DNA of 64,000 nucleotides from Pontiellaceae bacterium B1224 (lineage in GTDB: Bacteria; Verrucomicrobiota; Kiritimatiellia; Kiritimatiellales; Pontiellaceae): contig JAROBA010000030.1 of assembly GCA_029432815.1 (NCBI GenBank), forward strand, positions 1 through 64,000, given 5' to 3'. The notes below the pieces were generated by a model. It saw only the letters and a program-made list of their open reading frames with translations, had not been told where the DNA came from and made no database searches. Of the stretch, positions 47,437-58,535 are shown piece after piece. The position numbers and the translations under genes were made by a program. Position 1 is the stretch's first letter, and each line of letters opens with the position of its first letter.

Positions 47437-47593
47437 ACTTTGCAGGCTAGAAAATAGGTTAGAATTCAATACGTAAATTGCGTACTAACCGGAGCGGGTT
47501 CTCAGTGATTTTCTGTTTCCAATCATTTGGATGGAAACAATTTAAATATCCGGCTTGTCTTCCTCTGCAATAACGTCTTTTTATCATCTCTAT

Positions 47594-47986
47594 ATGAGAC
47601 ATTTGAAAGCAAGAGAATGGGAATTGCGGCTTAAGAACGTTTTCGATGAAATCGATGTGCGACTTGAAGATGAGTATGGAGAACGATTTAAGCTTCATCC
47701 TTCGAGACCGGTCGAAGGTCGCACTTCGAATCCTGAAATGGATGGGCTGTTTAATGTCGGAGCATCCTATTCAGCTGGATTTGGTTCAAAACTCGGTCCG
47801 GGATACGTAGTTGATATTCGTATCTCAACGCTGCAACGTATTTCAAATGAACTAAGGGAGGAACTGCGGGACAAAGTTCAAACCTGGCTGATTGAAAAGC
47901 TTCCAGTTGCATTTCCGGAGAATAAGCTACAAGTGGATAAAGAGCACCAGCATCTCCGTATTCACGGGGATCTCAGCCTTGATTAA
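47594..47986 (+). CDS. hypothetical protein (130 residues)
   Basis: This soluble protein begins MRHLKAREWELRLKNVFDEIDVRLEDEYGERF. Charged helices flank a central glycine-rich stretch, MDGLFNVGASYSAGFGSKLGPGYVVDIRISTL, and a C-terminal helix-strand part rich in charged residues follows. I do not recognise a family. It has no membrane span or signal. There is no good ribosome site, and a TTG 13 codons earlier is the alternative start. Its stop overlaps the end of the convergent kinase gene by four bases. Composition matches its neighbours, so it is probably real. Confidence 0.65.
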   Translation: MRHLKAREWELRLKNVFDEIDVRLEDEYGERFKLHPSRPVEGRTSNPEMDGLFNVGASYSAGFGSKLGPGYVVDIRISTLQRISNELREELRDKVQTWLIEKLPVAFPENKLQVDKEHQHLRIHGDLSLD

Positions 47987-49320
47987 TATGTATGGATACT
48001 TCCGCCGATAAATTCCCTGAAGAGCGAATCATCGGGTATACATTCGTGATCCATGAAGTCATGAAGCGGCTCAAGGAACTGCATGACACGCTGGGCACGT
48101 AAATACGCATCCTGCCGCTTAAAATCAGTCCTGTAGCATTCGATTGCTTTGGGAAAATGATGGAACAGTTTATTTTTCAAAACGGGGAATTCATACGGCA
48201 TCGCGCTGTTAACGACAAAATCAACATTTCCAATGAATGGAATAATATACTGCAGCTCACTTTTCCGGACATAGTGCCAATGAGTCAGTGTTTCGAGAAC
48301 GGAATGATTCCGGCTCCAGCTATCGCGGATCATTCGACGCATCAGCCGGTGATCAGCCCATCTCATAAATTCATCCTGTTTGTTTCGAAGCTGCCCCAGG
48401 GTCTCTATGTATAAACGAAACTTTTGTGAATCCGGGACACTGCGGGTCATATCGGAATACAGTCCGTGCAAGCAGTCCATCAGCAGGATTTCATCGTCCG
48501 CCAACGTCATCTCGTGTACGTTAAGAGTCCGTTTTCCTGTATGAAAATCATAATGCGGCATCATTACGGTTCGACCGGCCAGCAACTGCTCAAGATGTTT
48601 ATTAATCAACGCGATATCCAGCGCCTGTGGCGTTTCGTAGTCGTAGTCCCCAAACTCATCTTTAGGATGCATTTCAAGGTCGTAAAAATAGTTATCCACA
48701 TGAAAGGTCCTTAGTTTTTTTCCATGTCTGGAAAGCTGGTCTTCCATTTTAATCGTGGTGGTTGTTTTTCCTGACGAAGAAGGTCCGGCCACAATAATCA
48801 GCCTCACACCCTCCCCGTGATCAAGCACCCTTTTTCCGGCGGCCCGGCACTCATTGACATACCGATTTTCGCAGGCATGAACTAAATCGGGATACATCCC
48901 CTCTTCAATGATTGAGTTGATTCCTTCTATGGATTCACAATCATGTTCCATATTCCAGCGAAGTACTTCATAAATCAGCTTATAAGGAATGTTGTCAGTG
49001 GCTTCTACGGCTCCTCGTTTGGTCTCGCGAACTTCACTCCGTTTCTGGCGGTAGATGATGTAGGCCCGGGCAACTTTAATATGCCCGTTTTCCATCAGGA
49101 CCGATTCAACGATATCCTGGAGATCCTCAACGGTCGGAATCTGTGCGGCATAACTTTCAAGCGTTCGCTTTTCAACCAGTACAGCAAGGCGCTCAGCTTC
49201 ATCAAAGCCAAAGCCGCCGCTGGATGCCGCGGCGGCTTTAAAAATAGCATTTGCAATACGGGGCCGGTCATACATAACCAACTGCCCGTCTCGCTTAATG
49301 ATGGTCTTCAGGGCACCCAT
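47983..49320 (-). CDS. ATP-cone domain fused to uridine-kinase-like nucleoside kinase
   Basis: This 445-residue protein has an N-terminal ATP-cone (about 1-95: TIIKRDGQLVMYDRPRIANAIFKAA; DIVESVLMENGHIKVARAYIIYRQKR). A P-loop kinase of the uridine kinase/phosphoribulokinase type follows (about 170-380: IIVAGPSSSGKTTTTIKMEDQL; VDNYFYDLEMHPKDEFGDYDYETPQALD; LPHYDFHTGKR-like MMPHYDFHTGKRTL). Related bacterial nucleoside kinases carry a TGS domain in place of the ATP-cone. ATP-cones sense ATP/dATP, as in ribonucleotide reductase, so the kinase may be allosterically controlled. It follows rpoD by three bases and is probably cotranscribed with it. Confidence 0.85.
   Translation of the reverse strand: MGALKTIIKRDGQLVMYDRPRIANAIFKAAAASSGGFGFDEAERLAVLVEKRTLESYAAQIPTVEDLQDIVESVLMENGHIKVARAYIIYRQKRSEVRETKRGAVEATDNIPYKLIYEVLRWNMEHDCESIEGINSIIEEGMYPDLVHACENRYVNECRAAGKRVLDHGEGVRLIIVAGPSSSGKTTTTIKMEDQLSRHGKKLRTFHVDNYFYDLEMHPKDEFGDYDYETPQALDIALINKHLEQLLAGRTVMMPHYDFHTGKRTLNVHEMTLADDEILLMDCLHGLYSDMTRSVPDSQKFRLYIETLGQLRNKQDEFMRWADHRLMRRMIRDSWSRNHSVLETLTHWHYVRKSELQYIIPFIGNVDFVVNSAMPYEFPVLKNKLFHHFPKAIECYRTDFKRQDAYLRAQRVMQFLEPLHDFMDHECIPDDSLFREFIGGSIHTY
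48228..48242. repeat. variant of the 15-bp palindrome (position 10 is A)
   Basis: TTCCAATGAATGGAA has both outer five-base arms but A rather than C/T at position 10. Inside the ATP-cone kinase, translated as IPFIGN. Confidence 0.6.
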
Positions 49321-49323
49321 GGC

Positions 49324-51264
49324 TTATTCGCCGTCAAGGAAACCCTCTAGTTTGCGGATACGGGTCGGGTGTCGCATTTTACGTAGCGCTTTCGCTTCAA
49401 TCTGACGAATACGTTCACGAGTCACGTTAAACTTTCGGCCCACTTCTTCCAATGTTCGGGGATAACCGTCAACGAGCCCAAAGCGTAATGTCAGCACTTC
49501 CTGTTCACGATCCGTCAGTGTTTCCAGCACATCACCGATTTTTTCCTTCAGGAGACTGAAGGCTGTCATTTCGTCCGGTTTTTCAGCCGACTTATCCTCA
49601 ATGAAATCACCAAAGTGTGTGTCATCGCTGTCGCCAATCGGGCTCTGCAGCGAAATCGGTTGCTGGGCAATTTTCAGTATGGCGCGAACACGTTCCACCG
49701 GCAGCTCCATTTCATCGGCCAGCTCTTCCGGCGTTGCTTCACGACCAAACTCCTGAAGCAACTGCTTCTGAATACGCATCAGTTTGTTGATCGTCTCGAT
49801 CATGTGCACCGGAATACGAATCGTACGAGCCTGGTCGGCAATCGAGCGGGTAATAGCCTGCCGAATCCACCACGTGGCATAGGTTGAAAATTTATAACCT
49901 CGACGATACTCAAACTTTTCAACTGCTTTCATCAGACCCATATTTCCTTCCTGAATCAGGTCCAGAAAAGAAAGGCCTCGGTTGGTGTATTTCTTGGCAA
50001 TACTGATTACAAGACGCAGGTTGGCTTCAATCATTTCGGTCTTGGCCTTTAGGCCTTTACGAAGCCAAACCTTCAGCTCTGCATAATGCTTAGCGAACTC
50101 TTTCTGCTCCATCTGCAAGTAGCATTCAAGTTCTTTAATCTCCTTCCGAATTGCGCGAAGGTCTGTAGTTGCGCTTTTGGCACGACTTTTTTTCAATCGG
50201 TCCACTTCCTCAAGCAGATGCATCATTTTATGATGGTATTTATCCACCTCAGGAACCACATCTTCGATTGCTTTCTGCTTAAAATGAAGCTGAACAAAAT
50301 ATTCAGAAAGGCGATCCTGAGCCTTATCAAACAACTTTATCGCTTTCTTGTATTCTGAGCTGTCTTTCTTAGCTTTAGAATATTCAAGATAATATTTCAG
50401 CTTCAGTTCACGATTGCGGTCGATCCCTTTCAGAACTTTAGGGAGATCGTTGAAATAATCTTCGCGACATTCCACGTGTTTGTCAGAAATGATACGGTCA
50501 AAGCGTTCTTTACCCATCTCCAGGCGTTCGATTACACCGAGATAGGCATCCGTTGCACACCCGAGTCGATTAAACATCTTGGTGGTGTGAATTTCAGCTT
50601 CTTCGATTCGCATGGAAATTTCCACTTCCTGCTCGCGAGTCAGTAACGGCACCTGCCCCATTTGCTTTAGATACATGCGGACTGGATCGTCCAGCACATC
50701 GGAACGGGCACTTTGCTTGTCAGCTTGCTCTTTCTCAAGGCGGGCCTGATATTCCTCCACATCATCCTGTTTGATGATGTCGATTTCCATACTTTGGAGA
50801 AGCCCGACGATTTTATCGATATCTTCAATAACTACCAGATCTTCAGGAAAGGCTTCGTTAATATCTTCAAAGGTCAGGAATCCATGATCGGAGGCCAACG
50901 CCATCAGCTCTTTAATTCGGTCGTTGCGCTCTTCTCGGTCCATCAGAGAAACACCGCCGGCAGTGGCCTCGTCCACGGCGGCAACAGTTGCCGCCACTTT
51001 TGCTTCATGCTTCCTATCTTCCGCAGACATGGAAGACTCGACCTTCTTAACAGCTTTTTTAGCGACCGCTTTCTTTTTAGAAGCTTTTTTCTTGGCAGGT
51101 GCTTTTTTAGCAACCGCCTTTTTGGCCGGAGTTATTTTGGTACCCGGAGCAGCAGCTTTTTTACCGACCTTAATCGTTGCCGTTTCGTCCGCAGTTGCTT
51201 TCGTAGCAGCCGCTTTGGTTGTTTTGGATTTTTTTGCAGAAGTTTTCTTTTTGGAAACAGCCAT
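49324..51264 (-). CDS. rpoD: primary RNA polymerase sigma factor RpoD with lysine/alanine-rich N-terminal tail
   Basis: This 646-residue housekeeping sigma factor has region 1.1/1.2 (about 110-220), a nonconserved insert, and regions 2 to 4: region 2 with [57 protein letters not shown], and region 4 with [44 protein letters not shown]. Residues 1-75 are an unusual tail of K, A, T and S with [11 protein letters not shown] repeats like the C-terminal domain of histone H1. AAGGA lies before the start. It is followed at once by the ATP-cone kinase. Confidence 0.96.
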
Positions 51265-58073: not shown

Positions 58074-58535
58074 TTACCATGTACTGAATGGCTGTCTGGA
58101 AAGGTAGGAATTAAAATAACGCTCATCGCCCGAAACTTCCTCACCGGCCCAGTCAGGCAATTCAAACAGCTGCGTTTCTGACTCCAGTTCCACTTCCGCC
58201 ATAACTAAGCCCGAATTGGGTCCTTCAAAAACATCGAGCTCCCACGTCATGCCTGCATGTTCGATATAGTGGCGAGTCTTCTCAACATAGTGATCGCAAA
58301 GCATGAGCATGTACAGCGCATCGGACTTATCGATTTCGTATTCAAACTCCATCCGTGAAATGTTGTCTGTGGCCCCTTTCACCGTCAGATATCCGGTCTC
58401 ACCCAGTGTGCGAACCCGCACCGTCCGCTTCCGGTCGGAAATCATATATCCCTGCCGACATTCAAGCGCCTTCATCACTTCGGTCTTCCATGAATCACCC
58501 GTCACCAAATATTTTCTTTCAATTTCAATGCCCAT
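58074..58535 (-). CDS. CYTH-domain triphosphatase
   Basis: This 153-residue triphosphate tunnel metalloenzyme has the EIERKYLV signature, the RVRTLGETGYLTVKG strand and the later MEFEYEI and AEVELESE acidic strands lining the tunnel. Bacterial CYTH proteins hydrolyse inorganic triphosphate or other triphosphates; adenylate cyclase activity is rarer. It follows the class IV aminotransferase by eight bases. Confidence 0.9.
   Translation of the reverse strand: MGIEIERKYLVTGDSWKTEVMKALECRQGYMISDRKRTVRVRTLGETGYLTVKGATDNISRMEFEYEIDKSDALYMLMLCDHYVEKTRHYIEHAGMTWELDVFEGPNSGLVMAEVELESETQLFELPDWAGEEVSGDERYFNSYLSRQPFSTW

Follow-up and report, generated by a model that had tools for sequence, protein, structure and literature searches.

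The gene that follows rpoD in Pontiellaceae bacterium B1224 encodes an ATP-cone fused to a P-loop kinase, and the fusion is a variant of a known kinase family carrying a known sensor domain. The domain make-up, the gene order, the conservation of cone and catalytic residues, and the exchange of the N-terminal module relative to a sister family with a ThrRS-like N-terminus are all directly observed. The fusion is old and conserved, and its sequence suggests that it is probably an allosterically controlled small-molecule kinase, in which the cone would bind ATP and dATP and control the kinase. A search of the open-licence PMC literature turned up no description of the architecture, and the pairing of cone and kinase is apparently unstudied. 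Studies of ATP-cones are almost confined to NrdR and the ribonucleotide reductases (RNRs); a kinase that carries a conserved cone in two phyla would offer a clean case for asking whether dATP sensing is a portable module. Coordinates given without a contig handle are those of the window, the whole stretch of 64,000 nucleotides that was analysed.

Domain architecture of the fusion protein

Table 1. Features of the fusion gene, its product and the adjoining genes, in window coordinates.
Feature	Coordinates	Strand	Evidence
Convergent 143-aa gene bounding the site	47555..47986	+	tblastn in L198, L199, L200
ATP-cone/kinase fusion gene	47983..49320	-	ORF, ATG start, 445 aa; both Pfam domains above cut-off
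P-loop kinase domain and C-terminal tail, residues 171-445	47986..48810	-	PF00485; PRK/uridine kinase/pantothenate kinase superfamily fold
Arg-rich lid, residues 320-337	48310..48363	-	invariant residues in 76 sequences
G262, base-specificity position of uridine/cytidine kinases	48535..48537	-	aligned to Tyr/His of 3asy/3w8r
D209, probable catalytic base	48694..48696	-	Asp in all six aligned groups
Walker A, residues 179-187 (GPSSSGKTT)	48760..48786	-	sequence
Helical connector, residues 110-170, common to ThrRS-like kinases	48811..48993	-	profile alignment from residue 105
Flexible linker, residues 99-109	48994..49026	-	pLDDT <50 at 99-108; lowest conservation in the protein
ATP-cone, residues 6-96	49033..49305	-	PF03477, E 9.3e-22; model superposes on the 5olk cone
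Gap from rpoD stop to kinase ATG, 3 nt	49321..49323	-	sequence
rpoD, housekeeping sigma factor, upstream, same direction	49324..51264	-	all sigma-70 regions (Pfam), TIGR02393

The original prediction placed an ATP-cone in the first 95 residues, ahead of a kinase domain, and the domain search confirmed both with Pfam matches above cut-off. The cone reaches 77.8 bits where the cut-off is 25.8, and the PRK domain (PF00485, residues 175-372) reaches 66.6 bits where it is 22 (E 3.3e-18). Six places in five frames of the window's genome match the cone, the one in the fusion gene with the top score. The AlphaFold model of the fusion protein has a mean pLDDT of 87, and both the cone and the PRK domain are present in all 76 aligned relatives. 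These E-values, together with the conservation across the 76 relatives, rule out a chance or artefactual fusion. A phage or plasmid origin was likewise rejected: the viral contigs held no relative, and the plasmid records held no match covering 80% of the query.

Fold and nucleotide site of the ATP-cone

Structurally, the cone comes closest to the one in Leeuwenhoekiella blandensis NrdB (LbNrdB, 5olk), with a Z-score of 16.0 and 1.6 A over 96 residues at 41% identity; the runner-up cones reach Z 14. The two cones have the same fold, and the residues named for dATP binding and for the cone-cone interface are mostly kept, but the LbNrdB cone sits on an RNR subunit while the fusion cone sits on a kinase. 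In LbNrdB, each cone is reported to bind two dATP, D73 and R95 form an internal salt bridge, R102 contacts the gamma-phosphate, and M80, I92, I93, and K89 lie at the interface between cones (PMC5794259). The counterparts of D73, R95, and R102 in the fusion kinases are D69, R91, and R98, each conserved in 76 of 76 sequences. At the interface, the equivalent of I92 (I88) is kept in 75 of the 76, that of M80 (M76) is Met in 26 and Ile in 46, that of I93 (I89) is Ile in 41 and Leu in 19, and that of K89 (R85) is Arg in 61 and Lys in 11.

The invariant K9 is, by alignment, presumably equivalent to K53 of E. coli NrdR. In NrdR, F127 bars ATP from the outer site; the corresponding position is mostly Ala in the fusion kinases, as it also is in LbNrdB, so discrimination between ATP and dATP may be weaker in the fusion cone. 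K53 of E. coli NrdR contacts both nucleotides (PMC12176259).

Eleven cone positions are invariant in the 76 sequences (K9, R10, G12, A25, E65, Q68, D69, E72, Y90, R91, and R98). As far as sequence can tell, this conservation, which takes in the nucleotide-site residues K9, R10, D69, R91, and R98, indicates that the cone has been kept for nucleotide binding. The cone could instead be a leftover serving folding or dimerisation only, a reading with which the diverged cones of some Riflebacteria relatives agree; it is improbable in view of the eleven invariant positions, which include the counterparts of LbNrdB residues named for contact with dATP and for the geometry of the cone.

The kinase body and its substrate

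The kinase body alone is predicted with a mean pLDDT of 92. Its fold matches pantothenate kinase (PanK, Z 15.8), UCK2 (Z 15.0), and others comparably well (Z 14-16), and since these tie, the fold does not name the substrate. D209, which we take to be the catalytic base by analogy with uridine kinases, is invariant in the 76 sequences and the P-loop is nearly so; within the Arg-rich lid R320, R325, R328, R329, R332, D333, and R337 are also invariant. The last Gly of Walker A, G184, is replaced by Ser in 12 of the 76 fusion kinases. The carriers of this GPSSSSKTT variant are L068, L074, L079, L081-L084, L087, L088, L095, L096, and L106.

With the uridine-cytidine kinases (UCK2, TtCK, and Udk), the fusion shares the kinase fold (Z 13-15), the P-loop, the catalytic Asp, and the Arg lid, but the nucleoside pocket differs by Asp-to-Glu and His-to-Gly changes. 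Residue 229 is Glu in the fusion kinases and Asp in uridine kinases, while position 262 is Gly in 76 of 76 fusion kinases and His in three of three canonical Udk of the same order. In the Thermus kinase, one residue reportedly confines the enzyme to cytidine. The Thermus residue aligned with G262 is Tyr in the wild type and His in the mutant (3asy/3w8r). The uridine-kinase equivalog models were missed by a wide margin, with 79.5 bits against 220.3 for TIGR00235 and 85.8 against 180 for PRK05480. Thermotoga maritima TmUK, the only relative for which published assays were found, is assigned to the ThrRS-like set by its described architecture and not by sequence comparison; it made no UMP at full length or truncated and hydrolysed ATP when uridine was present (PMC10248530).

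The original prediction regarded the protein as a uridine-kinase-like nucleoside kinase, which as a statement of function is not upheld: given G262, the low uridine-kinase scores, and the absence of UMP formation by TmUK, "nucleoside kinase" is a label and not a finding. The reading of the protein as a normal uridine/cytidine kinase to which a cone has been added deserves little credence. Uridine kinase is the nearest family in both Pfam and NCBIfam, and a strong canonical Udk is missing in 33 of 40 relatives, including the window's genome; however, the protein falls well short of the family cut-offs, the residue at 262 is not the His of Udk, and a strong Udk is present in seven of the 40 relatives, of which G016, G027, and G028 have it alongside the fusion. 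The likeliest substrate is a nucleoside or a related metabolite, though not, in the classical manner, uridine or cytidine. A nucleoside of any kind is quite possible; a deoxynucleoside in particular is rather doubtful.

A more specific proposal is that of a deoxynucleoside salvage kinase, subject to feedback by dATP, that makes up for the lack of thymidine and deoxynucleoside kinases. No thymidine kinase (TK) was found in 40 relatives, nor any convincing dNK (five matches were weak), and among the 288 genomes sampled from the phylum a genuine TK occurs only outside the class, in 18 genomes (E <1e-38). Relatives that do not have the fusion, however, likewise have no TK, and four of the six Riflebacteria genomes with a genuine TK hold the fusion too, although one has just a fragment of it where a contig ends. 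We consider such a salvage role unlikely. Replacement of TK as such was set aside: the pattern holds in the window's own class and fails in Riflebacteria, where TK and fusion can occur together.

Archaeal 2-phosphoglycerate kinase likewise has a cone ahead of a P-loop kinase, but the resemblance of the fusion protein to it is limited to the cone region: the PRK04220 model gives 13.7 bits against a cut-off of 343, with a match confined to that region (E 0.03).

Relationship to the ThrRS-like kinases

The profile of the fusion kinases and one built from 23 ThrRS-like kinases align over 333 columns at 34% identity (E 1.5e-77), beginning at residue 105 and running to the C-terminus. The cone ends at residue 98 and homology starts at 105. 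The two are thus sister families with one helical connector and kinase body, in which the sensor module in front has been swapped: the fusion has an ATP-cone in place of the ThrRS-like N-terminal region, and Pfam finds no TGS match there. The kinase family was originally thought to carry a TGS domain more often than a cone. This holds in part: Pfam detects TGS in only three of the 23 ThrRS-like kinases and tRNA_SAD in one, but a ThrRS-like N-terminus is evident in the single representative searched with NCBIfam (thrS model, E 1.1e-12).

Most ThrRS-like members, the type to which TmUK belongs by architecture, also have Gly at the specificity position. Invariant residues proper to the fusions, in comparison, are H218, E306, R320, W321, H347, Y350, and S354, and the fusions form a separate branch of the kinase tree. 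In this tree, which was rooted with canonical Udk as outgroup and included 30 of the 76 fusions, the fusions and three relatives with a diverged cone lie on one side with moderate support (SH-aLRT 88), and the ThrRS-like kinases and a short paralogue lie on the other. The topology fits a fusion that arose once and was either present early in both phyla or transferred between them. A sensor swap on one kinase body makes the function of the ThrRS-like "nucleoside kinases" testable through simpler, cone-bearing cousins.

Two other kinase arrangements were noted. The window's genome also encodes a 308-aa relative of the kinase with no recognised N-terminal module (L037:2928-3854), and in G024 a PRK-family kinase is fused to a dihydrodipicolinate-synthase-like domain (L197:3588-5123).

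Distribution of the fusion

A survey of relatives, which covered the window's own phylum and Riflebacteria, established that the fusion is not an oddity of a single genome. It is present at full length in 52 of 97 sampled Kiritimatiellia genomes (the window's genome counted, and one copy with an internal stop), and all 52 full-length fusions among the 288 genomes sampled from the phylum fall inside this class. Within the class, 23 of 32 families have it and only two families are mixed. In the Riflebacteria phylum (Candidatus Rifleibacterium), 22 of 39 genomes have a full-length fusion; in a further three it is present in pieces that run into a contig end or lie on two contigs. Among the 40 genomes of a search for relatives, including the window's genome, 20 have a near-full-length match (one at 55% identity) and 20 have none. 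The scan of contigs from named genomes kept the best 80 of 421 relatives; the titles of these 80 refer to Kiritimatiellota, to other genomes labelled PVC, Verrucomicrobia, or Lentisphaerae, to unnamed bacteria, or to Riflebacteria, and those at 77-83% identity belong to Pontiella, Pontiellaceae, and Kiritimatiellales.

The rpoD neighbourhood

The kinase gene had been described as following rpoD by three bases, and the order TAA, GCC, ATG makes that gap exact. Of the 20 loci with the fusion among the 40 relatives, 18 have rpoD just upstream, either 3 to 172 nt away or with a slight overlap. Among the best 80 of 421 relatives, rpoD is directly upstream (gap of at most 275 nt) in 51 loci and 1.3 kb away in one more; none was found in the remaining 28, which include three non-Riflebacteria loci with less than 250 nt of upstream sequence. 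The seven Riflebacteria-clade loci among these 80 all have the fusion without an adjoining rpoD. In 13 of the same 80 loci dnaG is upstream of rpoD; in the window, a gene other than dnaG lies beyond rpoD.

Three genomes without the fusion (G024, G071, and G014) have rpoD followed by the same convergent 143-aa gene and pckG, so that they differ from the window chiefly by the kinase gene; this order was not seen at seven further rpoD loci without the fusion. In G024 and G071, a terminator-like hairpin with a T run follows rpoD, at the spot that the kinase ATG occupies in the window, and no terminator-like site lies between rpoD and the kinase gene in the window. This difference argues for co-transcription of the two genes. 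The 143-aa gene itself matches nothing in Pfam or NCBIfam at E up to 1. Elsewhere in the window, a CYTH-domain protein is encoded at 58074-58535.

The proximity to rpoD was initially read as a specific tie between the sigma factor and nucleotide supply, but it is better read as putative membership of a dnaG-rpoD operon. No RNR, nucleoside, or dNTP gene was recognised, on reading by eye, among the 25 commonest flanking clusters of the best 80 of 421 loci. An extra ATP-binding gene in this operon has a parallel in Staphylococcus, where the ATP-binding Serp1129 is encoded within the dnaG-sigA operon (PMC2824700). This parallel is compatible with a regulator, either an ATPase or a kinase with RNA or protein as its target, that would report the nucleotide state to the dnaG-rpoD operon. 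A role of this kind, autoregulation of translation, has been proposed for the ThrRS-like relatives, and the TmUK activity described above is that of an ATPase. The strict conservation of D209, of the Arg lid, and of most of the P-loop nevertheless suits phosphoryl transfer to a small molecule, and a regulator of this type seems unlikely to us.

Proposed control of the kinase by the cone

The preferred explanation remains a small-molecule kinase under allosteric control, for which we infer nucleotide binding, the sign of the effect, and co-transcription. A cone of the type that takes two nucleotides would have taken the place of the ThrRS-like N-terminal region on the same connector and kinase body. 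The kinase would be active while ATP occupies its cone. A rise in dATP would load two dATP into each cone, the loaded cones would associate by way of their last two helices, and the kinase would then be shifted by the connector into an inactive oligomer. If the gene is expressed with rpoD, and in several relatives with dnaG and rpoD, then kinase output would follow growth and replication.

A dATP switch in the fusion kinase is plausible. Several observations count against the control model: an enzyme that consumes ATP gains little by sensing it, the Walker A Gly is Ser in some members, the Riflebacteria loci do not adjoin rpoD, the common neighbours, as read by eye, include no recurrent RNR or salvage gene, and some Riflebacteria relatives have a diverged cone only. 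The broader proposal, that of a kinase outside ribonucleotide reduction which is switched by dATP and ATP and lies in a primase/sigma operon, thereby tying a salvage or signalling step to DNA precursors, is put forward as tentative and is on balance doubtful.

Three relatives from the Riflebacteria phylum (L175, L178, and L185) have a longer, diverged cone, with Pfam E-values of 4e-7 and 1e-9 in the two that were scanned. The KRDG motif is gone from the cones of L175 and L185, and the three are possible natural sensor-less controls.
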